From contig NZ_SLXT01000001.1 of assembly GCF_004341395.1 (NCBI RefSeq), forward strand, positions 1-64,000: DNA of 64,000 nucleotides, read 5' to 3'. The notes beneath the pieces were generated by a model. The model had not been told where the DNA came from and ran no database searches. It saw nothing but the letters and a program-made list of their open reading frames with translations. Position numbers and translations under genes: made by a program. Of the stretch, positions 22,827 to 35,502 are shown piece after piece (positions within the stretch are counted from its first letter, which is position 1; every line of letters starts with the position of its first letter). The DNA is from Heliophilum fasciatum. GTDB taxonomy: Bacteria > Bacillota > Desulfitobacteriia > Heliobacteriales > Heliobacteriaceae.

Positions 22827-23183
22827 TTAGGAATTTTTCGCTTTTGCCGCTTCTACGAGGCGGTTGAATGCCGGCAGGTCATTGACCGCCAGGTCAGCCA
22901 GCATCTTACGGTTGACCACGATGCCCGCTTGTTTCAGGCCGTTGATCAAGCAGCTGTAAGAAATGCCGCTCATCCGAGCTGCAGCGTTGATCCGAGTGAT
23001 CCAAAGACGACGGAAATCGCCTTTGCGCTTTTTACGGTGAGCATAGGCATAGGTCAGCGCTTTCATCACCGTTTGGTTTGCTGAACGGAACAGTTTGGAG
23101 CGGGCGTTGCGGTAACCGCGAGCCAGTTTCAGAATTTTCTTATGCCGTTTACGGGACATGACGCCCGTTTTTACACGTGCCAT
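22827..23183 (-). CDS. rplT: 50S ribosomal protein L20
   Basis: A 118-aa L20, an early 23S rRNA-binding assembly protein. The highly basic N-terminus ([21 protein letters not shown]) and [20 protein letters not shown] are near invariant in the family. It is the last gene of the infC-rpmI-rplT operon. In Firmicutes L20 represses this operon by binding its leader; a matching leader lies upstream of infC here. Confidence 0.98.
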
Positions 23184-23235
23184 ACGAAGACCTCCTGTAA
23201 CGCATCATGCGCAATAATCAATGGGAAACTGAATT

Positions 23236-23433
23236 CTAGAGATAAGGCAGCAGCAGATTGAGTTTCGGCGTATCGGCCTTATCGATAACGCATGTGCCAC
23301 GGAGTTGGCGTTTCCGCTTTGCCGATTTTTTCTCCAGGATGTGACGGGCATAGCCGTTTTTGCCTTTGAACTTGCCGGTTGCCGTCTTCTTGAAGCGTTT
23401 CGCGGCTCCGCGGTGGGTCTTCATCTTGGGCAT
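23236..23433 (-). CDS. rpmI: 50S ribosomal protein L35
   Basis: A 65-aa basic protein with the L35 signature ([20 protein letters not shown]) and the normal family length. It sits between infC and rplT in the canonical order and has an AGGAGAGA-type ribosome site just upstream. Confidence 0.98.
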
Positions 23434-23474
23434 ATTGTCTCTCTCCTCATCGTTGAGTTATCGATCGAAAAGCC

Positions 23475-24134
23475 TTACTTGGCGTCGTTCTGTAACGCTT
23501 CGATCGGCTGAGCACCGGCAGCAGGTGCGCTCGGAGTCGCGGTTGGAGCGACTGCCTCCTGATCGGCCTTGGCAGGGGTTGCTTTGGCCTCCCGCGGCTT
23601 TTCGGGCTTGGCCTCACGAGCCGACTCGGATTTCGGTGTCAAAATCATGATCATGTTGCGGCCTTCGACTTTGGCGTCTCGCTCAACATTAGCCAGTGGT
23701 TTACATACTTCAGCTAAGCGTACACAAAGTTGTCGACCCAATTCGGGATGGGTAATTTCCCGTCCCCGGAACATAATCGTTACCTTGACTTTGTCCCCGT
23801 CTTCCAAAAAGCGAATCGCATTGCGCGCTTTGGTCTCAAAGTCATGGTCCTCAATGTTGGGACGCAGTTTGACTTCTTTAATCGAGACAATTTTTTGCTT
23901 TTTACGCGCTTCCCGCTCACGCTTACTTTGCTCAAACTTGAATTTGCCGTAATCCATGATCCGACAAACGGGCGGTTTGGCTGTTGGCGCGACCTCGACC
24001 AGATCAAGGTTTTTTTCTTGGGCAATACGCAAGGCTTCCCGAATGTTCTGGATACCTAGCTGATCACCCTCGGGACCCACCAACCGTACTTCACGGACGC
24101 GGATCTCCTCATTAATGCGCAGATCCTTGCTGAT
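23475..24134 (-). CDS. infC: Translation initiation factor IF-3, apparent AUC start
   Basis: About 219 aa. IF-3 binds the 30S subunit and checks start-codon pairing. The conserved N-terminus (ISKDLRINEEIRVREVRLVG) begins at codon ATC (24132-24134), six nt after GGGGGTGA, and an in-frame TGA lies two codons upstream; no ATG, GTG or TTG exists before TTG 24083, which would delete the first conserved strand. An AUC (or AUU) start is known for infC and lets IF-3 repress its own translation. The N- and C-domains follow (AKPPVCRIMDYGKF; KVKVTIMFRGREITHPELG). The C-terminal ~45 residues are an Ala/Pro/Glu-rich tail not usual in the family. Confidence 0.93.
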   Translation of the reverse strand: MSKDLRINEEIRVREVRLVGPEGDQLGIQNIREALRIAQEKNLDLVEVAPTAKPPVCRIMDYGKFKFEQSKREREARKKQKIVSIKEVKLRPNIEDHDFETKARNAIRFLEDGDKVKVTIMFRGREITHPELGRQLCVRLAEVCKPLANVERDAKVEGRNMIMILTPKSESAREAKPEKPREAKATPAKADQEAVAPTATPSAPAAGAQPIEALQNDAK

Positions 24135-25007: not shown

Positions 25008-25269
25008 AAAGTTCACTCCTTACTTTATTTTTGGTTTTCCTGCCGGTTCTCTTCGATACGATCACGCAGCAGAATCCCTTAGCAAGGTATGCAACCTTTC
25101 CTTGTTTGGCTTCTCTATTGGCAAATCATTCCACAAACAAACAGTTCCCCCTACTGCATTTTGGATCCATTCATTGGCAATTCCTCCTCCGGCGAGGAAC
25201 CGCTGCTTGTCCATCGGCATAGGTAATAACGTAACCTGGAAATAAAATCCAACATGGAGGTCAATGCTA

Positions 25270-26403
25270 ATGAGTTCTACCCAAAAAAGCACCCGTGAGT
25301 TTTGGTTTGACGGGCGTACCCTTCCCCTGGACGATCACGCAACCTGGAGTTTAGTCCACAACTCCCCCATCGATCGCATTGTCCTCACGACGGCCCAACG
25401 CCAGGAAATGCATTTACCCCGGAAGACTGTTCCCATCACCGCCATCACCGCCATCGATGATCTGGAAGTGATTCCTGAAGGTGAGATCGTTTTGTCCGCC
25501 GAGCCGTCCCTTCTTGACATGGCTGCCCAACGGGGCTATCGCACTTGCTTATCTTTGTTTGTGCAAGGTGGGCAAGGAGAACTGGCTGATGCCTGGCAAA
25601 ACGCCGCCCGCTACGATTATGCCATCGTTGATTTCGATTTGCCCACCAACATTCCCTTGGAATTGATCATCGCCCGCTTGCAAGAACGCAAAACGGTCCT
25701 GCTCAAAAAAGAAACTACCGTCATGGGCGTGGAAATCGCGTACGGCGTCATGGAAAAAGGCAGCGACGGTGTTCTGTTCGCCAGCACCGATTTGCAGGAA
25801 ATCAGCCAAGCCGGTCAGTACCTCGCCACGGTGCGCCAGGAATCCATCGAACTGGTTCCCCTGTGCGTAGAAGCCGTTCGCCATATCGGTATGGGCCTGC
25901 GGGCTTGTGTCGATACGACCGGCATCATGACGACCGATGAAGGAATGCTGATTGGTTCCACATCGAACGGTGGGATCTTTGTTTGCTCGGAAACCCACTA
26001 CCTTCCTTATATGAATCTTCGCCCCTTCCGGGTCAATGCCGGTGCCGTTCATTCCTATGTATGGATGCCCGGCGATGCTGCCGAATACCTGACGGACCTC
26101 AAAGCCGGCAGCCAAGTGCTTTGTGTGAATACCCAAGGCCAAGTGCGTACGCTCACAGTTGGCCGCGTCAAGATTGAAGTCCGTCCCTTACTGTTAATCC
26201 AAGGCACAGCGCGCAACAGCGCCGGCATCGACATCCCGATCAACGTTATCGTCCAAGATGATTGGCACATCCGCATCATGGGTGCCGACGGCAAACCCTT
26301 AAATGCCACTACGATTCAGCCGGGTACCGAATTGCTCAGCTATATCAGCATCCCCGGTCGTCACGTCGGTATCAAAGTCGATGAAACCATTTTAGAACGC
26401 TAG
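25270..26403 (+). CDS. 3-dehydroquinate synthase II homologue (AroB'/GriH-like)
   Basis: A 377-aa member of the DHQ synthase II family, first known from archaea (MJ1249). The diagnostic core is present: DTTGIMTTDEGMLIGSTSNG (around residues 216-235), then RPFRVNAGAVHSYVWMPGD and YLTDLKAGSQVL. Archaeal members oxidatively deaminate and cyclise an aldolase product to 3-dehydroquinate. Homologues such as GriH of Streptomyces griseus instead give 3-amino-4-hydroxybenzoate. The partner aldolase follows 12 nt later, so the two act in sequence. The start ATG 25270 has GGAGG nine nt upstream; ATG 25264 is too close. The shared operon with ligases and an amidohydrolase favours the GriH-type role, which is inference. 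Confidence 0.9.
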   Translation: MSSTQKSTREFWFDGRTLPLDDHATWSLVHNSPIDRIVLTTAQRQEMHLPRKTVPITAITAIDDLEVIPEGEIVLSAEPSLLDMAAQRGYRTCLSLFVQGGQGELADAWQNAARYDYAIVDFDLPTNIPLELIIARLQERKTVLLKKETTVMGVEIAYGVMEKGSDGVLFASTDLQEISQAGQYLATVRQESIELVPLCVEAVRHIGMGLRACVDTTGIMTTDEGMLIGSTSNGGIFVCSETHYLPYMNLRPFRVNAGAVHSYVWMPGDAAEYLTDLKAGSQVLCVNTQGQVRTLTVGRVKIEVRPLLLIQGTARNSAGIDIPINVIVQDDWHIRIMGADGKPLNATTIQPGTELLSYISIPGRHVGIKVDETILER

Positions 26404-26415
26404 AAAGGTTGAGAG

Positions 26416-27195
26416 GTGATTGCATTGAGCGGCAAACTCATCCGGCTCAACCGGCTTATTAAACCCCATCGTCCGCTGTTATCCGTTCCGATGGATCATG
26501 GCCTCACCATTGGGCCTGTTTCGGGATTAACCGATATGGGCCGCATCGTCAGTCAAGTGGCCGCCGGCGGCGCCGATGCAGTAATCATCCATAAAGGATT
26601 AGCACGCCAGATCAGCCAACACCTGCCGGAAACGTGCCACCTAATTGTGCATCTCTCGGCTTCGACGCAACTCGCTCCCGATTCGACGCACAAAGAACTG
26701 ATCGCTTCCGTCGAGGAGGCTGTGCGTCTGGGTGCAACGGCTGTTTCCGTCCATGTCAATCTGGGCAGTGCTTCCGAGAGTCAGATGCTCAAAGACATGG
26801 GCTTCGTCGCCGAGCAATGTGATCGCTGGGGAATTCCCCTGCTGGCCATGATGTATGTGCGCGACGGCAAAAAAGAAAATGAATACAATCCGACGAAAAT
26901 TGCCCACGCCGCCCGTGTGGCTGAAGAAATTGGTGCTGATATTATCAAGATCAATTATACCGGTGATCCCGACAGCTTCCGCATGATCACCAAAGCTGTG
27001 CAGCCGCCGGTCGTCATCGCCGGTGGCCCCAAGATTGACTCCAACGAACGCCTGCTGTCCATGATCCAAGATGCGATGCAAGCCGGAGCGCGCGGAGTCG
27101 CCATCGGCCGCAATATTTTCCAAGATCCCGCACCGCAGCAATTGACCGCCCATATTCGTTCGATTCTGGATCAGCCGGGACGGTTTCTCCATTAA
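26416..27195 (+). CDS. DhnA-type class I aldolase (ADH synthase/GriI-like)
   Basis: A 259-aa (beta/alpha)8 aldolase of the family of 2-amino-3,7-dideoxy-D-threo-hept-6-ulosonate synthase (MJ0400) and GriI. Visible active-site features are PMDHG (Asp27, His28), MMYVRDG (Tyr147) and the Schiff-base Lys178 in DIIKINYTGD; the phosphate-binding GG and GR loops are at VIAGGPK and VAIGRNIFQDP. These enzymes join aspartate semialdehyde to a C3 phosphate (GriI, for 3-amino-4-hydroxybenzoate) or to a deoxy-ketohexose phosphate (archaeal DHQ route). Which substrate applies cannot be read directly. GTG 26416 and TTG 26425 both have plausible ribosome sites. Second gene of the operon. Confidence 0.9.
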   Translation: MIALSGKLIRLNRLIKPHRPLLSVPMDHGLTIGPVSGLTDMGRIVSQVAAGGADAVIIHKGLARQISQHLPETCHLIVHLSASTQLAPDSTHKELIASVEEAVRLGATAVSVHVNLGSASESQMLKDMGFVAEQCDRWGIPLLAMMYVRDGKKENEYNPTKIAHAARVAEEIGADIIKINYTGDPDSFRMITKAVQPPVVIAGGPKIDSNERLLSMIQDAMQAGARGVAIGRNIFQDPAPQQLTAHIRSILDQPGRFLH

Positions 27196-27209
27196 GAAGG
27201 AGGCTTCTC

Positions 27210-28304
27210 ATGAGCAAACCCAAAAAACGCCGCCCAGGGTATTCACCGGCGCAGTCTTCGCCGGCACGCAGTTGGTCGGCCGTTCGCCCTTCCAAGCCGA
27301 CTTTACCTGCAGTAACGCCTGCAACTCCTCCTGCCACCGCGCCAGCAGTTCCGCCACCGGCCATTCCTACCAACAGCTCTTCCGCGCCGGTATCAAAAGT
27401 TCGCAAAAAACGTAAAAAAGGCTCCGCCGCGCCTGTCACTTATCCCGTTCCGGTACCGCTTGCCAAACCAACAGTTATACCCGTTCCCGCACCTGTGCCC
27501 AAACCGGTAACCGTACCTGGTGCCCCTTCCTACTTCACACCGGTATTCCCGGCAGTGTCCCCTCCGGCCAGAAAACGCAAACACAAAACAGTTCCACCGC
27601 CCGCTGCACCGCCGGCAGCGCCGGCATCCCCACCTCAGCCTACACCGGCTTACCGCCCGGTTGTTCCTCCCTACACTCCTCCGGCCCCGGCTGCCCCGAC
27701 TGCCCCGGCTGCCCCGACTGCCCCGGCTACCCCGGCTGCCCCGGCTGCTCCGGCTACCCCGGCTGCCCCGGCTGCCCCGGCTACCCCGGCTGCCCCGGCT
27801 ACTCCGGCTGCCCCGGCTGCCCCGGCTACTCCGGCTACTCCGGTTGCCGCACTGATCCCTAAAGCCGACCTGGATGCGGCCATCCAATGGCATAACGCCG
27901 GCGCTGACGGCAATAAAGAAGCGGTCATCAAAGCCTATGAGCTGCTCGAAAAATTGCGTAAAATCAACAATCAAGATCCTCTGGTCAACGCCTATTACGG
28001 CAGTACGCGATGCTTACTTGGCCGTGATGCCGACAATCCCACGCGACGTTTTTCGCACGTCATGGTCGGCCTCAAAATCCTCGATCAACTCCTGCAAAAC
28101 GATCCCGATTTCATCGATGCCCGGCTCTTGCGCAGCCAAGTTAGTTTCCAAATACCGGAGGAATTTTTCCATCGCACCCGCACAGCCATTACCGATTTCC
28201 AATACCTGCTTCAGCACGCTTCCGCATACCCCGACAAACTCAGCGCCGATTTTATCGAAAAAGTCAAAACCGATTTAGCCGCTGCCCAACAACGGATTCG
28301 CTAA
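27210..28304 (+). CDS. Pro/Ala-rich protein with one C-terminal helical-repeat module
   Basis: A 364-aa protein of two parts. Residues 1-210 are disordered: basic patches (KKRRPGY, RKKRKKG, RKRKHK) alternate with Pro/Ala/Thr-rich runs, ending in a long APATPAAP-type repeat. Residues about 215-364 form a TPR-like all-helical module ([20 protein letters not shown] ... [15 protein letters not shown] ... RLLRSQVSF). The same module occurs twice in the next gene. No signal peptide or membrane segment is seen, so it is probably cytoplasmic. I do not recognise the family; a scaffold or protein-binding role for the pathway enzymes is a guess. Good AAGGAGG ribosome site; 14 nt after the aldolase gene. 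Confidence 0.75.
27680..27842 (+). repeat. Tandem repeat encoding Ala-Pro-Thr linker
   Basis: About 160 nt of near-perfect tandem copies of the unit GGCTGCCCCGGCTACCCC and shorter variants (GGCTGCCCC, GGCTACCCC), encoding an APAAPATP-type linker inside the 27210-28304 gene. Units of 9 and 18 nt keep the frame. Such DNA expands and contracts easily, so copy number probably varies between strains. A long minus-strand open frame here is a by-product of the repeat. Confidence 0.9.
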
Positions 28305-28319
28305 TTAAAGGAGGCGGCC

Positions 28320-29567
28320 ATGAAATCCAAGAAAAAACTACGGCCTTCGCCCCGCTCCTACTCATTTATTCGCCCGTCACAGCAAGAAACGCCTTGGGGT
28401 TTCGAACCCCCGGTGATTACACCAGCGCCTGCCGGTGCCGTCACCGCCTCCCCCGCTGCTGCACCATCCCGCTCTGGCACCAAGGCCAAAACCCCCAATA
28501 CCAAACAGGCCATCGAATGGCACGGTCTCGCCCTCCGGGGCGACCGTGCCGCACTCCAAGCAGCCCTTGCTTTTTTTCAACAGCGTCACAAACGGTCTCC
28601 CTTGCTTACGGCCTATTACGCGGATTGCCTTTCCTTAGCCAGTCGCCATGGTACCGATTACAATTCCATGTTTAAAGACGGTCACCAAGCCATTGCCCTT
28701 TTTGATCAGGCCGTCAACGCCGCGCCCGATAATGTGGAAATCCGTCTTCTGCGGGCCCGGCAAAGCCTGCGCCTGCCGGAAGGATTTTTTCGCCGCACCG
28801 CCACCGCGATCGGTGATTTAGAATATCTGATCGCACGTTACGAAGAAAATCCCCAACTCTTTTCACAAGAACAATACTGGCAGTTACTCTACGACCTCGG
28901 TAACGCCTACCGCATCTTGGAAATGGATGAAGAGTGCCAGAGCACCTGGGCCAAACTGCTCGAGCTTAACCCTCCCGCTTCCTATGCCGAACAAATCGAG
29001 CGCCAACGCCCTCGTTCTGACGAAAGCTTAGTCCAGACGATCGATGCCATGAACAACAGCAACGCTTTGATCACTGAAGGCATTCGCCTCCATGATCTTG
29101 CCGCTGAAGGTGCCGCCTACGCCGCCGCTCCTGCTCACAAAGCATTGCAAAAAGCCTACGAATTGGCACCGAATCAGCCGCTCCTGCTTGGCTACCTCGG
29201 CAGCGCCACAGCACTGCTTGCCCGCTATGCCCTGGAACCGTCCACCCAATTCGGCAACACCATCCAAGGCATGCGTATGCTCAAAGAAGCCATCGAAAAG
29301 GAACCCAGCAATATGACCCTACGCTGGCTACGGGGCCGTCTGACGGCCCATCTGCCGGAAACCTTTTTCCCGATGGCCCAAAAAACGATTGAAGACTTCC
29401 AACTGCTGCTCAAATCCTATAAACGAGGCGCCTCGGGCCTCTCCCCTGACCAATACAGCTATGTGTTAACAACGCTCCTCCGCGCTTATGAGCAAGCCGG
29501 CGACAGCCACAATGCCACCCGCATCCGGCAGTTGATCGCCCGTGCCCAAGGGAGGAATCGCTCATGA
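28320..29567 (+). CDS. Protein with two TPR-like helical modules
   Basis: A 415-aa soluble protein. A basic, Pro/Ala-rich N-terminus (residues 1-60) is followed by two copies of the module seen in the preceding gene: one from about residue 62 (QAIEWHGLALRGDRAALQAA ... YYADCLSLASR ... RLLRARQSLRLPEGFFRRT) and one from about residue 250 (RLHDLAAEGAAYAAAPA ... GYLGSATALLAR ... RWLRGRLTAHLPETFF). The shared LPExFF and RxLRxxxS/T patterns show common descent. I do not recognise the family beyond a TPR-like fold. Its stop overlaps the next start by 4 nt (ATGA), coupling it to ligase 1, which suggests a role with that enzyme. Confidence 0.75.
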   Translation: MKSKKKLRPSPRSYSFIRPSQQETPWGFEPPVITPAPAGAVTASPAAAPSRSGTKAKTPNTKQAIEWHGLALRGDRAALQAALAFFQQRHKRSPLLTAYYADCLSLASRHGTDYNSMFKDGHQAIALFDQAVNAAPDNVEIRLLRARQSLRLPEGFFRRTATAIGDLEYLIARYEENPQLFSQEQYWQLLYDLGNAYRILEMDEECQSTWAKLLELNPPASYAEQIERQRPRSDESLVQTIDAMNNSNALITEGIRLHDLAAEGAAYAAAPAHKALQKAYELAPNQPLLLGYLGSATALLARYALEPSTQFGNTIQGMRMLKEAIEKEPSNMTLRWLRGRLTAHLPETFFPMAQKTIEDFQLLLKSYKRGASGLSPDQYSYVLTTLLRAYEQAGDSHNATRIRQLIARAQGRNRS

Positions 29568-30892
29568 ATTTGCCATTCTCCAAACGCATCAGCCAGGCGC
29601 GCACTCCTGCCTGGCTGATGCACCACCTTAGCGGGCCCGATATTGACAACATGACACCAGAGGCCCTGGAAAGTTATCAAAAAGCAGCCCTCACCGAAGT
29701 CATTCAACAAGCTTACGAACACTCTCCTTATTACAAGCAAAAATTCGATGAGCGGGAAGTTCATCCCAAGGACATTCAAGAACTCGCCGATGTTGCCAAA
29801 CTGCCCTTTACCACCAAAAGCGAAATGCGCACCGATCCCTGGCTGCTGCTGGCCTGTGATCGCCAGGATATCGCCATCATCCATGTCTCCACCGGCACGA
29901 CCGGCGGCAACCCCATTTATGTCATGCAAACCTGGCGCGACTACTACCTCCATGACCTGGCACCCGGTTACGCTACGTTAGTACCGGTAGAAACGGGGGA
30001 CCGCTGCCTAAACGCCCTTCCCTATGAAATGAGTTCCGCCGGCCTAGCCTTTCATAAAACCTTGATGAACAGTTGTGAAGCGACAGTCATCCCTGCCGGC
30101 AAGGGCGGAGCCTACTCCTCACCGGAAAAAACAGTACGTTTAATGAAAGATCTCGCACCGACGGTCGCCGTCACCAGTCCCTCCTATGCCATCAACCTGG
30201 CTGAGACAGCCGCTGCCGCATCCTTTGACATCCGTGATTTAGGCCTCAAACAAATGTGGCTCACCGGCGAAGGCTGCTCATCAGCTTTTCGCCAACGTGT
30301 CGAACAACTTTGGGGCACGAAAGCCAACTTTTACTACGGCTCCTTAGAAGGCGGCGTCATCGGTATCGAATGCGCCGATCACGACGGCTATCATATCGCT
30401 GCGGGCCACTCCCTCGTCGAGATCATTGATCCCGGCACCGGTGAAGTGCTGGCCCCCGGTGAAATCGGCGAAATTACAGTGACCTGTCTTCTCCGTTATG
30501 ACACGCCGCTGATTCGCTATCGCACGGAAGATCTCGGCTATCTCGATAATACGCCTTGTTCTTGCGGTGTCGCCTTGCCGCGACTGCAATTGCGGGGACG
30601 TAAAAATGATCAGATCCACATTGACGGCACCGACTTTTCACCTTTTTATCTGGAAGAATTTTTAATGCGCATCGCCGAGATCGGCAACTGGTATCAATTT
30701 GTCACTCGCCAAGCGCAACCTGACAACTTGCTGATCCGCACCGAATTAGCGTCCGGCGTCACACCGAGCGACCGGCTGGCCGACAAAATCGCCAGCCGCA
30801 TGGAGTACGCCGCCGGACTGCCCTGCACCATTGAGTTTGTTTCCTCCATGCCCCGCCCCGGCGGAAAAACCGTCCGTGTAATCCACGAATAG
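29564..30892 (+). CDS. PaaK-like adenylate-forming ligase 1
   Basis: A 442-aa member of the phenylacetate-CoA ligase (PaaK) branch of adenylating enzymes, which activate aryl or acyl carboxylates with ATP as acyl-AMP, often then passed to CoA or an amine. Motifs: P-loop STGTTGGNP (109-117), YYGSLEGG (257-264), RYRTEDLG (318-325), the PaaK Cys pair CSCG (332-335), hinge RGRKNDQ (344-350), and a terminal GGKTVRV that may supply the catalytic Lys. No carrier-protein domain is attached. The substrate is unknown; in this operon an aminohydroxybenzoate is the natural candidate. Translationally coupled to the helical-module gene; the amidohydrolase follows after 9 nt. Confidence 0.88.
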   Translation: MNLPFSKRISQARTPAWLMHHLSGPDIDNMTPEALESYQKAALTEVIQQAYEHSPYYKQKFDEREVHPKDIQELADVAKLPFTTKSEMRTDPWLLLACDRQDIAIIHVSTGTTGGNPIYVMQTWRDYYLHDLAPGYATLVPVETGDRCLNALPYEMSSAGLAFHKTLMNSCEATVIPAGKGGAYSSPEKTVRLMKDLAPTVAVTSPSYAINLAETAAAASFDIRDLGLKQMWLTGEGCSSAFRQRVEQLWGTKANFYYGSLEGGVIGIECADHDGYHIAAGHSLVEIIDPGTGEVLAPGEIGEITVTCLLRYDTPLIRYRTEDLGYLDNTPCSCGVALPRLQLRGRKNDQIHIDGTDFSPFYLEEFLMRIAEIGNWYQFVTRQAQPDNLLIRTELASGVTPSDRLADKIASRMEYAAGLPCTIEFVSSMPRPGGKTVRVIHE

Positions 30893-30901
30893 GAGGATGC
30901 C

Positions 30902-31660
30902 ATGATCATCGACGCACACGCTCATATCTCCGATACAGACTACGGCAGTGCTGCCCTGTATCAAGAGCAAATGGACATCGCCGGCATCAGCGGCGCTGTA
31001 TTCGTCCCCGGCGGCATGATGGATGTCCGGCGCATGACCGACTATGTGACGGGCAAACGGGGTCCGGAAAATATCATCCCCGACAACGCTACCGTCGCCT
31101 CGGCCGTAGCTGCGAACCCGGCCATGTTGCGTGGTTTTGCTTGTGTGGACCCTCATGAGCCGGAAGCAGCGGAAGAATTGGCCCGTCTTTTTGCCGAAGG
31201 TTTTCGCGGCTTGAAGTTATCGCCCATGAGCCACCAGTTTTCCTTTGGCAGCAACGCCGTCGCCGAACTTGTGCAAGTCTGCTGGCAGTATCGCTGCCCT
31301 GTCTACAGCCACGTCGTCTACAGTCCCGGCGCTTCCACGGCCCGCTTTGCCCAACTGGCCCGTGAAAACCCGCAAGTTTCCTTTATTCTGGGCCACATGG
31401 GCTTTGGCCCCGCAGATCGGGAAGCCGTCGAAGCCGCCAACGAACTCCCCAATCTCTACTTGGAAACTTCCACAGGCAACTTGATTCACTTGCAAAATGC
31501 CCTGGACCAACTTGGCCCTGGCAAGCTGATCTTCGGCTCGGAATTTCCCCTATCCAACCCGCTGGTCGAACTGGCGAAGATCCACATGCTCCGTATCGCC
31601 GGCAGTGGTATCGATCAGATCCTTGGTGACAACATCCGTTCCTTATTGCAATGGTCCTAG
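30902..31660 (+). CDS. Amidohydrolase-family TIM-barrel protein
   Basis: A 252-aa Amidohydrolase_2-type protein. Metal-ligand positions are the N-terminal HxH (DAHAHIS, His6 and His8), His137 (VYSHVVYS) and His165 (LGHMG), with the usual GLKLSP lysine at about 105. The strand-8 acid, normally Asp in GSDFP, is Glu214 in FGSEFP. Relatives include hydrolases, decarboxylases and the benzoxazole-forming amidohydrolase of nataxazole biosynthesis. Between two PaaK-like ligases and downstream of the 3-amino-4-hydroxybenzoate-type genes, a ring-closing (dehydrating) role is attractive but unproven. AGGAGG ribosome site; start ATG 30902. Confidence 0.85.
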   Translation: MIIDAHAHISDTDYGSAALYQEQMDIAGISGAVFVPGGMMDVRRMTDYVTGKRGPENIIPDNATVASAVAANPAMLRGFACVDPHEPEAAEELARLFAEGFRGLKLSPMSHQFSFGSNAVAELVQVCWQYRCPVYSHVVYSPGASTARFAQLARENPQVSFILGHMGFGPADREAVEAANELPNLYLETSTGNLIHLQNALDQLGPGKLIFGSEFPLSNPLVELAKIHMLRIAGSGIDQILGDNIRSLLQWS

Positions 31661-31676
31661 GGAGGAGGCAGGAGCC

Positions 31677-32957
31677 ATGACCTCCGTCAACCAACCGCAA
31701 CTGACCGCACTCAATCAAGCCATCGCCCGGGCACGGCAAGCTCCCTTTTATCATGATCGCTTGCCCGCAGAAGAACTGACTGATCTGCATCAACTGAAAA
31801 CACTGCCTCTCGTGACCAAAGACGATCTGCGCCAACAGTCCCCCTGGGGACTGCTGGCGACGGATCGCCGGCAACTGCGCCAGTATCATGAATCCTTCGG
31901 TACGACCGGCACACCGGTCTCCACTTGGCTGACAAGCGCCGATCTGGCCGATAACGCCTGGCAGGTCAACCAATGCGGCATCGATTTTCGCCCCGGCGAC
32001 CGTGTGCTCATCCGCTATCCCTATGCCCTCTCCTTGATCGCCCACATGATCCACCGCGCAGCCCAGCAAAAAGGCGCTACCGTCATTGCCGCCAGTTCTC
32101 GCAATACGATCACTCCCTTTGCCCGGGTGATCCAGTTGATGCAAAAACTCGACATCACCGTACTGGCTGCGTTGCCGATGCAAGCGATTCTCCTGGCGGA
32201 AACAGCAGCCATGCTCGGTAAAGATAGCCGCAGCGATTTTCCGGCCTTACGGGCCATTGAAGTCGGCGGTGAATTACTGACACCGCGCAAACGCCGCTGG
32301 ATCGAAGATCTCTGGCAAGTTCCCGTCATTGAACTGTACGGAATGACCGAAGCCGGTACTTGCCTGGCCGACTGCGGCAACGGTCGATTGCATCTGATCG
32401 AGGATCATTTCATCATCGAATTGCTCGACGACAACTGGCAAACGGAAGTGCCCGATGGACAAATTGGTAACTTGGTGATCACCACGATCACCGAAAAAGC
32501 AACGCCGTTGATTCGCTTTCGCACCGACGATCGCGCCCGCAAAATTCTCAGCCCCTGTGCTTGTGGCCGGGGAGCAGCTTATGAACTGCGCGGCCGCCGC
32601 CACGATCTGATCACCATTGCCGGCCAAGAACTCGACCTCTGGGATCTTGATGAACTGGTCGGCACCTTGCCGGGCCATCATCTTTGGGTCGCCGGACCCA
32701 GCGGCCCGCCGTCGAAGGGTTTGTCAGGAAACATCCTCCATCTCGTCATTGAAGAAACAGTTGATCCCTTGCCGCCCGATTGGACGGCTCAGTTGCAAGC
32801 CCGTGTACCCTTTCCCCTGCAGTTAACTGCTGTTCCCTACGGCACCTTATATAACCGGCAAAACTTGCTCTCTACAGCCGAAGTAGGCAAACCACGTTAT
32901 CTTTTTACAGCCGAAGAGATGGATGAGCAGGCCTACCGCTCCTGTACCCGCTTATAG
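31677..32957 (+). CDS. PaaK-like adenylate-forming ligase 2
   Basis: A 426-aa second PaaK-branch enzyme, clearly diverged from ligase 1. Motifs: SFGTTGTP (73-80), YGMTEAGT (221-228), RFRTDDRA (280-287), CACGRG (294-299) and RGRRHD (305-310). The C-terminal subdomain is shorter and ends with NLLSTAEVGKPRYLF, where Lys could be the catalytic residue. Two ligases suggest either two acid substrates or one adenylation and one acyl transfer step. The start ATG 31677 has GGAGG about ten nt upstream; the longer frame from 31605 overlaps the amidohydrolase gene. Last gene of the operon, followed by a terminator. Confidence 0.87.
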   Translation: MTSVNQPQLTALNQAIARARQAPFYHDRLPAEELTDLHQLKTLPLVTKDDLRQQSPWGLLATDRRQLRQYHESFGTTGTPVSTWLTSADLADNAWQVNQCGIDFRPGDRVLIRYPYALSLIAHMIHRAAQQKGATVIAASSRNTITPFARVIQLMQKLDITVLAALPMQAILLAETAAMLGKDSRSDFPALRAIEVGGELLTPRKRRWIEDLWQVPVIELYGMTEAGTCLADCGNGRLHLIEDHFIIELLDDNWQTEVPDGQIGNLVITTITEKATPLIRFRTDDRARKILSPCACGRGAAYELRGRRHDLITIAGQELDLWDLDELVGTLPGHHLWVAGPSGPPSKGLSGNILHLVIEETVDPLPPDWTAQLQARVPFPLQLTAVPYGTLYNRQNLLSTAEVGKPRYLFTAEEMDEQAYRSCTRL

Positions 32958-32994
32958 CAACTGGTCGCTCATCGTGAACTGATATCCCATCGGG

Positions 32995-33024
32995 CCCGTT
33001 CCTTTATTGATGAAGGAGCGGGCT
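32995..33024 (+). terminator. Terminator of the 25.3-33.0 kb operon
   Basis: Stem with arms GCCCGTTCCTT / AAGGAGCGGGC (one mismatch) followed by TTTTGG, 38 nt beyond the last gene of the operon. Confidence 0.75.
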
Positions 33025-33183
33025 TTTGGTGCGTTCTAGCGAGCTTTTGCTGTTCCTGCCGGATCCGGTCAAAGGATGGACAACCGCAACCATCTAAACT
33101 TTTTTTGGTAATAATTAACAATTTCTTCTTTGCCGAATACCTTGATATTGGGTACTCGATCAATCAATAAGGAGGCTGACTGA

Positions 33184-33513: not shown

Positions 33514-35430
33514 TTAGCTATGGGCTTTTTCCGCCACTTCTTGCACCAGTTTGTCCACAAAAGCATCGAGAGCCATGGCACCTTGATCGCCGGCGCCAAA
33601 CTTCCGCACCGCTACGGCGCGGTTTTCCGCTTCTTTGTCGCCAACGATCAACAGGTACGGGATCTTCTGCACACCGCCCTCGCGGATCTTATAGTTGACT
33701 TTTTCGTTGCGGTCATCCAGTTCGACCCGCAATCCCTTGGCTGCCAAAGCGTCGCGGACCTCAACGGCATAATCACGGTGACGATCGGTAATCGGCAGCA
33801 CCCGCGCTTGCACCGGTGCCAGCCAGGCCGGGAAAGCACCGGCGAAGTGCTCCGTCAAAATGCCAATAAAGCGTTCAATCGAACCAAAGACAACGCGGTG
33901 GATCATGACGGGACGATGCTTTTGCCCGTCTTCACCGACATAGGTCAAATCAAACTTCTCCGGCAGTTGGAAATCGAGCTGAATCGTACCGCACTGCCAT
34001 GTCCGGCCCAAGCAGTCTTTTAAATGGAAATCAATTTTCGGCCCGTAGAAAGCGCCGTCGCCAGGGTTAAGCTTATAGGCAACACCTTTAGCTTGCAGGG
34101 CTGCTTCCAGCGCTTCCGTCGCTTTTTCCCAAGCTTCATCGCTGCCCATGGAGTTTTCCGGGCGCGTCGACAGTTCTACGTGATAAGAGAAACCAAAGGT
34201 CGAATAGAAGTGATCAACCAGATCAATGACGCCGATGATCTCCTCTTTAATCTGCGATGGCAGCATAAAGATATGCGAGTCATCTTGCGTAAAGCAGCGC
34301 ACACGCATCAAACCGTGCAACGCACCGGAAAGCTCATGACGGTGTACCAAACCCAATTCAGCCAAGCGCAAAGGCAATTCACGATAGGAATGGATATCCT
34401 GCCGGTACACAAGCATACTGCCGGGGCAGTTCATCGGCTTAATGGCATATTCCGCTTCATCGATCTGCGTGGTGTACATATTTTCCTTGTAGTGAAACCA
34501 GTGACCGGAACGCTCCCAGAGCGATTGATTCAAGATAACCGGCGTACGAATCTCTTGATAGCCCGCTTTTTCATGGGCTTGACGCCAGAATTTCTCCAAT
34601 TCATTGCGCAGAATCATGCCTTTGGGCAGGAAGAAAGGGAATCCAGGTCCTTCTTCCAAAAGTGTGTACAAGCCCAGTTCTTGGCCCAGCTTGCGATGGT
34701 CACGCCGCTTAGCTTCTTCGATGCGATGGAGATGCTCGTCCAACAGCGTTTTCTTCGGGAACGACGTACCATAGATGCGCTGGAGCATCTTGTTTTTCTC
34801 ACTGCCCCGCCAGTACGCGCCGGCCAGGCTCATCAGCTTGAGCGCTTTCATGGCGCCGGTGGAAGGTAAGTGGGGACCGGCGCAAAGATCGATAAAATCC
34901 CCTTGCGAATACATCGAAATCACGGCATCTTCCGGCAAATCCCGGACCAGTTCCACTTTATAGTTCTCGCCTTTTTCCGTAAAAAAGCGGATCGCTTCTT
35001 CCCGGCTTACTTCCCGCCGTTCGATGGGCAGATCGGCTTGAACGATGGCGGCCATTTCTTTTTCAATGGCGGCCAAGTCTTCCGGCGTAAATACATGGTC
35101 CGAGTCAAAATCATAATAAAAACCGTCTTGAATGGCTGGCCCGATCCCTAACTGTGTGCCCGGGAACAAGCGCTGTACCGCTTGCGCCAGCAAGTGCGAC
35201 GACGAGTGGCGGTACACTTCCCGGCCTTCAGGATCATCAAAGGTATAGATCTCGACAGCAGCGTCAACGTCAATCGGTGTATTTAGTCCCACGACACGGC
35301 CATTGATGCTGCCGGCCAGGGCATTTTGCGCCAGTTTGCGACTTAAGGCAATGGCGACTTCGGCGACGGTCGTTCCTAGCGGAAATTCCCGAACAGCGCC
35401 ATCTTTTAAGGTTACTTGAATGTTGCTCAC
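33514..35430 (-). CDS. thrS: Threonyl-tRNA synthetase
   Basis: A 638-aa class II synthetase. It has the N-terminal TGS domain (residues 1-62), the editing domain with HSSSHLLAQAVQ and later SxxC-like elements, the catalytic core with zinc-ligand Cys in NCPGSM and His in HRHELSG, GDGAFYGPKIDFH, and the C-terminal anticodon-binding domain (ARVLPITDRHRDYA). It charges tRNA-Thr and clears mischarged serine. The start is GTG 35430 with TAGGAGTGG upstream; the open frame extends 20 codons into the leader. Unlike thrS in Bacillus, no T-box is present; a short attenuator-like leader is seen instead. ytxC lies upstream. Confidence 0.97.
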   Translation of the reverse strand: MSNIQVTLKDGAVREFPLGTTVAEVAIALSRKLAQNALAGSINGRVVGLNTPIDVDAAVEIYTFDDPEGREVYRHSSSHLLAQAVQRLFPGTQLGIGPAIQDGFYYDFDSDHVFTPEDLAAIEKEMAAIVQADLPIERREVSREEAIRFFTEKGENYKVELVRDLPEDAVISMYSQGDFIDLCAGPHLPSTGAMKALKLMSLAGAYWRGSEKNKMLQRIYGTSFPKKTLLDEHLHRIEEAKRRDHRKLGQELGLYTLLEEGPGFPFFLPKGMILRNELEKFWRQAHEKAGYQEIRTPVILNQSLWERSGHWFHYKENMYTTQIDEAEYAIKPMNCPGSMLVYRQDIHSYRELPLRLAELGLVHRHELSGALHGLMRVRCFTQDDSHIFMLPSQIKEEIIGVIDLVDHFYSTFGFSYHVELSTRPENSMGSDEAWEKATEALEAALQAKGVAYKLNPGDGAFYGPKIDFHLKDCLGRTWQCGTIQLDFQLPEKFDLTYVGEDGQKHRPVMIHRVVFGSIERFIGILTEHFAGAFPAWLAPVQARVLPITDRHRDYAVEVRDALAAKGLRVELDDRNEKVNYKIREGGVQKIPYLLIVGDKEAENRAVAVRKFGAGDQGAMALDAFVDKLVQEVAEKAHS

Positions 35431-35460
35431 AATGTCCACTCCTACATCCGAAAAATCAAA

Positions 35461-35502
35461 CCTCCCGCTTGACAAGTCAGCGGGAGGCACATGATTTGCC
35501 TC
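35461..35502 (-). promoter_or_regulatory. Attenuator-like leader of thrS
   Basis: The ~75-nt thrS leader contains a terminator-like stem (CCTCCCGCT / AGCGGGAGG, 35461-35487) followed by TTTGATTTTT. A competing upstream stem (GAGGCA / TGCCTC, 35484-35502) uses part of the terminator's 5' arm, so only one can form. No T-box, Stem I or leader peptide was found. What ligand or protein would choose between the stems is unknown. Structures were judged by eye. Confidence 0.5.

Follow-up and report, generated by a model that had tools for sequence, protein, structure and literature searches.

A probable closoxazole-type gene set with dedicated tetratricopeptide-type proteins, perhaps a late-sporulation operon, in Heliophilum fasciatum

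The first 64,000 nucleotides (nt) of contig NZ_SLXT01000001.1 of Heliophilum fasciatum (hereafter, the window) carry an operon of seven plus-strand genes, in which the five enzyme classes of closoxazole biosynthesis are accompanied by two genes for proteins of tetratricopeptide repeat (TPR) type (Table 1). All seven open reading frames, and their order, were found as an earlier note on this DNA had claimed; the distances between them, from gene 1 to gene 7, are 12, 14, 15, -4, 9 and 16 nt. Gene 1 may start at either 25264 or 25270, the latter being the choice of the earlier note. We take the source genome to be that of a spore-forming heliobacterium. It is read as a heliobacterium because of bch genes on contig C3 of the same assembly, where a bchY-like gene (352.8 bits, not reaching the model cut-off of 425) is followed by open reading frames whose sequences read as bchZ and bchX, and as a spore-former because of SpoIVA and a dpaA match of 306.5 bits, under the model cut-off of 319.65.

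Table 1. Features of the operon region (window coordinates) and one recurrent gene of related clusters (locus coordinates).
Feature	Coordinates	Strand	Assignment	Basis or remark
Candidate sigma-K-like promoter	25199..25226	+	AC-N17-CATAGGTAA	consensus T at eighth -10 position missing
Gene 1	25264..26403	+	3-dehydroquinate (DHQ) synthase II family, proposed 3-amino-4-hydroxybenzoate (3,4-AHBA) synthase	PF01959, 312 bits
Gene 2	26416..27195	+	2-amino-3,7-dideoxy-D-threo-hept-6-ulosonate (ADH)-synthase-type aldolase	over TIGR01949 cut-off; single match in own genome
Gene 3	27210..28304	+	N-terminal part rich in Pro and Ala; a single TPR-type module (residues 224-363)	module profile, 175.8 bits
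Gene 4	28320..29567	+	TPR-type modules at residues 63-223 and 253-404	TPR_14, module profile
Gene 5	29564..30892	+	PaaK-like adenylate-forming ligase	PF00501 and AMP-binding_C_2
Gene 6	30902..31660	+	amidohydrolase, proposed condensing (benzoxazole-forming) enzyme	PF04909 (Amidohydro_2)
Gene 7	31677..32957	+	ClxA/NatL2-like ligase	AMP-binding family; 9s3l 216 bits, AjiA1 203 bits, 6siw 185 bits
Hairpin at operon end	32992..33025 (about)	+	possible terminator	short T run
Small basic gene, 79 amino acids	33184..33423	+		relatives inside G006 cluster (L033); overlooked in earlier note
Recurrent protein, 146-199 residues	L025:15527-16078, L027:724-1206, L112:606-1163, L113:12422-13021, L115:3082-3636, L146:6283-6723			

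In the closoxazole pathway, as described, a putative 3,4-AHBA synthase and an aldolase act together with a pair of AMP ligases and an amidohydrolase that catalyses condensation (PMC12118335). As far as the available text of this source goes, these are encoded by clxA-E in Clostridium cavendishii and by pfxA-E in Pyxidicoccus fallax. The operon has members of the same five classes, its amidohydrolase being a putative condensing enzyme. The earlier note had read genes 1 and 2 as a homologue of DHQ synthase II (DHQS-II) and an aldolase, which was borne out at the family level (PF01959; TIGR01949). Gene 2 is a DeoC/LacD aldolase that exceeds the cut-off of the ADH-synthase equivalog model TIGR01949 (314.9 bits versus 299.45); gene 1 cannot be assigned by its NCBIfam scores to either AHBA synthase or DHQ synthase. 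The pair is of the closoxazole type at the level of these two families only. A similar combination of DHQS-II-type and DhnA-type enzymes is known from GriH/GriI (grixazone), BagC/FevH and BagB/FevI, but genes 1 and 2 fall far under the corresponding NCBIfam models (BagC_FevH, 232.6 bits with a cut-off of 750; BagB_FevI, 238 bits with a cut-off of 500).

The two PaaK-like adenylating ligases and the amidohydrolase that had been reported later in the operon were also recovered. The nearest solved chains of gene 5 are phenylacetate-CoA ligases, and the best solved relative of gene 7 is chain 9s3l, with which residues 5-409 of 426 align. This chain is taken to be ClxA because residues Y218, Y219, T222, N226 and K393, as numbered in PMC12519233, match its letters; the accession itself is absent from the main text of that paper. 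The same source identifies NatL2 as 6SIX/6SIY and AjiA1 as 6WUQ. These ligases of nataxazole type align with nearly the whole of gene 7 at 185-203 bits, below the ClxA chain. Gene 7 retains Y219, T222 and the catalytic K393 of the presumed ClxA chain as Y221, T224 and K405, and differs from it in having L220 at the position of Y218 and T228 at that of N226, where the Thr corresponds to T243 of NatL2. The operon encodes two PaaK-like AMP ligases, one of which is ClxA-like, and enzymology of the closoxazole kind is likely.

In the pathway that we propose, genes 1 and 2 would convert aspartate semialdehyde and dihydroxyacetone phosphate to 3,4-AHBA, the two ligases would adenylate aryl carboxylates and join the units via ester or amide bonds, and the amidohydrolase would condense the joined pair to a benzoxazole. 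The earlier prediction of an aminohydroxybenzoate-based benzoxazole or amide holds with respect to the enzyme classes and the ClxA-like gene 7; a benzoxazole product, as opposed to an amide or an ester, is our inference.

Genes 3 and 4 are built from a repeat module of ~164 residues, which occurs once in gene 3, twice in gene 4 and three times in one protein of several relatives; in some genomes a single multi-module gene is present in the stretch seen. TPR repeats with a helical-hairpin fold are indicated for gene 4 by TPR_14 (27.6 bits, cut-off 23.5), by a predicted model that is all-helical (mean predicted local distance difference test score 78.1, from a three-row alignment) and by Foldseek, which matched this model to TPR chains with a best E value of 1.3e-05 and low template modelling scores. 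The module profile gives partial support, its best solved chains being matched only at about positions 130-160. No Pfam family was found in gene 3, and its TPR assignment is by homology to the gene 4 modules only.

The occurrence of these genes was analyzed in a class sample of 82 genomes and in a phylum sample of 398, in the latter with cut-offs of 170 bits for the module and 428 bits for the amidohydrolase that were placed at score gaps after the scores had been seen. The module was found at E <= 1e-15 in 32 of the 398 genomes. Modules of at least 170 bits and amidohydrolases of at least 428 bits occur in exactly the same 21 genomes; the remaining 11 module genomes score 72-158 bits and lack an amidohydrolase of that strength. 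Among the latter, G373 gave two amidohydrolase matches scoring 115-119 bits, and other matches were seen in G269 (288 bits) and in G086, G123, G143 and G283 (109-118 bits). DHQS-II exceeds its cut-off in 19 genomes, i.e., 18 of the 21 strong genomes and G269, with a match of 18.6 bits, under cut-off, in G233. Within the class, strong modules (best match >190 bits) are found in 10 of the 82 genomes, with one further genome at 21 bits, and these ten are the class genomes found with DHQS-II. The earlier note had placed the two helical-module genes outside pathways of this kind. Since strong module and strong amidohydrolase share the same 21 genomes, we rejected the view that these genes are passengers; the TPR proteins are almost certainly an integral part of this cluster variant, and may serve as scaffold or carrier proteins dedicated to the pathway. 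They occur in every cluster variant of this clade, whereas they are not described for clx/pfx in the available text of PMC12118335; gene order and the promoter-like element discussed below also differ between clx/pfx and the operon.

Six other genomes of the family share the full seven-gene set with the window, and G096 has the same enzymes in a different order; the module was not found in G001 and G003 of the family in the class genome search. In G020 and G021, two genomes of a second family, the cluster comprises two ligases, the amidohydrolase, ATP-binding cassette (ABC) transporters of Ssu and Liv type, TPR proteins, DHQS-II and the aldolase. The genes are spread over different contigs in G261 (modules, DHQS-II and aldolase apart from the amidohydrolase) and in G108, G320, G366 and G155 (DHQS-II separate), and in G118 the aldolase lies 4.6 kb away. 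Among the ten weaker-module stretches examined (G214 left out), glycosyltransferase-like genes are near the module gene in G224 and G197, and several of the remaining stretches seem to encode TPR proteins that are exported. The closoxazole-like cluster of G269 (L125:2073-13291) contains three ligase-like genes, an ABC-exporter-like pair and a further AMP-ligase-like gene; it is without a module at E <= 1e-15 and encodes a different TPR-like protein of 173 residues (module profile, 9.6 bits).

A promoter-like element, TCAC-N16-GAATANNNT, recurs in the upstream regions of related clusters. When 36 cluster GAATA sites were aligned on GAATA alone, T, C, A and C were the most frequent letters at positions -20 to -17 (22, 22, 30 and 26 of 36), and T was present at +8 in 28 of 36. 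The AC occupies -18/-17 in 26 of these 36, versus 2 of 51 sites upstream of 237 control genes. GAATA itself lies in range in 33/42 cluster units and in 47/237 controls, the latter being upstream regions of starts from the fetched stretches. The pattern AC-N17-[AC]ATANNNT was found in 28/45 cluster units, 15/237 controls and 16/21 upstream regions of dpaA (22 genomes were searched, one of which has no dpaA). It was also matched by 13/29 upstream regions chosen by hand, which belong to small genes associated with the clusters, to neighbours and to genes with weaker modules. Successive counts used 48, 44, 45 and 42 upstream regions, because small genes were removed along with starts that were incomplete or internal to an operon; the 42-unit list also leaves out three NTT genes. 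Loci L002 and L110 are apparently one contig (equal length and identical matches), of which only L110 entered the promoter counts. The units come from related genomes and are not independent, and the pattern was noticed first and counted later, only the AC and the 17-nt geometry having been expected beforehand.

In Clostridioides difficile, sigma-E and sigma-K have similar -10 elements, the -35 element of sigma-K is AC, and dpaA is listed under sigma-K, according to the available text of PMC3789822. The clusters have the AC 17 nt 5' of the -10 element, and the window has a near match to it upstream of gene 1. Because the promoter-like element has sigma-K geometry, which is seen also at dpaA of the same genomes, we slightly favour sporulation control of the operon, with expression predicted from this element. 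A sigma-K-type polymerase would then probably transcribe the operon in the mother cell at a late stage of sporulation, and the product would therefore be a spore-associated aromatic compound. If our reading is right, dipicolinate offers a parallel: it too is a mother-cell aromatic that branches from aspartate semialdehyde, and its synthesis genes (dpaAB) have the AC-N17 geometry. Its enzymes are unrelated to those of the operon, however, and the -10 elements differ, with CATA at dpaA but GAATA in the clusters. Two other promoter types were rejected as candidates: a loose sigma-A pattern occurs in 7/42 cluster units, with none listed upstream of the operon, and the sigma-H pattern AGGA-N11-17-GAAT in 2/42; the pattern scan lists no sigma-70-type site on the plus strand upstream of gene 1.

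As a whole, the reading of the locus as a closoxazole-type operon with dedicated TPR proteins that is transcribed late in sporulation appears to us evenly balanced, and a number of observations weigh against it. The sigma-K consensus of Bacillus subtilis has a 17-nt spacing and the -10 element CATANNNTA; the clusters instead have GAATANNNT and the window CATAGGTAA. The site in the window is a near match only, with no match to the strict pattern there, and strict AC-N17-CATANNNT is not enriched at clusters (2/45 versus 6/237 controls). In three whole genomes the exact element gave 13 matches versus 10 for a reversed control, so it is not over-represented and a genome-wide regulon of this element was rejected. 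Sites of AC-GAATA type occur in six of nine families and in none of the others (f41, f83, f97). SpoIVA, tried as a discriminating partner of the cluster, was also rejected, being present in 20/21 strong genomes and 316/377 others (p = 0.22). With respect to the enzymes, ClxA Asn226, which contacts AHBA, is Thr228 in gene 7, a residue known from one enzyme; only the presumed ClxA chain was compared with the operon by sequence, ClxB-E and Pfx having been compared by class; and the likeness of genes 1 and 2 to GriH/GriI is one of enzyme type. The earlier note had named conservation of the ligases and amidohydrolase without genes 1-2 as counter-evidence; with respect to DHQS-II, 3 of the 21 strong genomes (G118, G268, G453) show this pattern and the other 18 do not.

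Liv-type importer genes adjoin the cluster in all three of these genomes, with only part of one in G268, and among the other 18 the stretches from G020, G091 and G285 were seen to hold them; the importers of the genomes lacking DHQS-II may bring in an aryl acid. By locus, Liv-type ABC importer genes are present in clusters L042, L026, L043, L028, L025, L110, L111 and L119, and Ssu-type importer genes in some of these as well as in L112, L113, L114 and L122.

It is rather unlikely, in our view, that the operon instead makes a closoxazole-like metabolite of growing cells (an antibiotic, chelator or signal) that is exported, the element belonging to some other regulator with no link to sporulation. 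Such a role would agree with the known closoxazoles having been obtained as extractable products, as the available text of PMC12118335 has it, with the departure of the element from the strict sigma-K consensus and its lack of genome-wide excess, and with the transporter genes of some clusters and the ABC-exporter-like genes of the G269 cluster. The -35 element and spacing are nevertheless the same as at dpaA in the same genomes, the sigma-H and sigma-A patterns are rarer, and no exporter gene is found in the operon region of the window. The AC-N16/17 element was present in none of five upstream regions tested in the G269 cluster.

Another unlikely possibility is that the ligases and amidohydrolase convert aminohydroxybenzoate to an amide, ester or oligomer but not to a benzoxazole, gene 6 being a hydrolase or decarboxylase. 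The family of gene 6 (Amidohydro_2) includes both activities, its Glu214 occupies the position of an Asp in 3cjp, the nearest structure, and gene 7 lacks Asn226 of ClxA. However, the same Glu is present in the amidohydrolase of the closoxazole-like cluster of G269 (43% identity to gene 6), and this Glu and His 6, 8, 137 and 165 are present in 28/28 aligned rows; the G269 cluster contributes one row, and two rows are the same contig (L002/L110, both of which were also kept in the trees).

It is very improbable that genes 1 and 2 act in an aromatic amino-acid pathway of archaeal type, an alternative to which the NCBIfam scores of gene 1 and the match of the aldolase to the archaeal ADH-synthase model lend themselves, because a search for the canonical genes, as proposed in the earlier note, found one DHQ synthase (aroB) and two 3-deoxy-D-arabino-heptulosonate 7-phosphate synthases in the genome, and because DHQS-II exceeds its cut-off only alongside an amidohydrolase of this type (19/19 genomes of the phylum sample). 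Little was taken from trees of genes 1, 2 and 6, since their internal support is weak and no GriH/GriI reference was included.

With regard to the surroundings of the operon, a hairpin that is a possible terminator lies 3' of gene 7, in a stretch that folds at -32 kcal/mol (z -3.3). It has a short T run, however, and is absent from the list of the terminator pattern scan. A second, strong hairpin follows the small basic gene downstream, in which no Pfam or NCBIfam family exceeds its cut-off. Genome G006, which belongs to the same family, has two longer relatives of the product of this gene, L033:3812-4234 and L033:1772-2296, inside its cluster or next to it. The operon is flanked by rplT/infC-like genes (window 22827-24083) and a thrS-like gene (33514-35490), names that were read from the sequences, and a related operon is placed in the same way in L030 (genome G004). 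Within gene 3, a repetitive stretch (window 27690-27850) encodes an Ala/Pro/Thr-rich tract that looks slippage-prone and may vary in length.

Small proteins accompany the clusters elsewhere, none of which is named by Pfam or NCBIfam above curated cut-off. A protein of ~146-199 residues recurs beside DHQS-II/aldolase genes in two families (Table 1), with no Pfam or NCBIfam family over cut-off in its L025 and L027 members. Near heliobacterial clusters are Cys-containing proteins of 114-115 residues (L033:646-990 and L029:1671-2018), for which no Pfam family was found and each of which has an AC-N17-CATANNNT site upstream.

A literature search, which covered few subscription papers, yielded nothing joining 3-amino-4-hydroxybenzo- with Heliobacterium or benzoxazole with the spore coat; the endospore link led to laccases and the tetratricopeptide link to Streptomyces, with no paper on the cluster by title. 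In the main text of a Moorella spore proteomics paper (PMC8745062), none of six words searched for occurs.

Closoxazoles have been described as natural products, and the available text of PMC12118335 gives no native role for them. A benzoxazole-type product at the spore of H. fasciatum is possible, and we suggest tentatively that anaerobic spore-formers, including the phototrophic heliobacteria, make a 3,4-AHBA-derived benzoxazole or oligo-aryl compound in the mother cell late in sporulation, which TPR scaffolds would fix in or on the spore. If this widespread variant is indeed a sporulation gene set, it would provide a native role for closoxazole-like compounds, which could then be sought in the spores of heliobacteria and other clostridia. 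Such a product would form a second aromatic spore molecule derived from aspartate semialdehyde, beside dipicolinate, and may function in UV protection or coat hardening. The TPR module, which is present at full strength in exactly those genomes of the sample that have the amidohydrolase, provides a ready marker for the cluster and a testable scaffold hypothesis.

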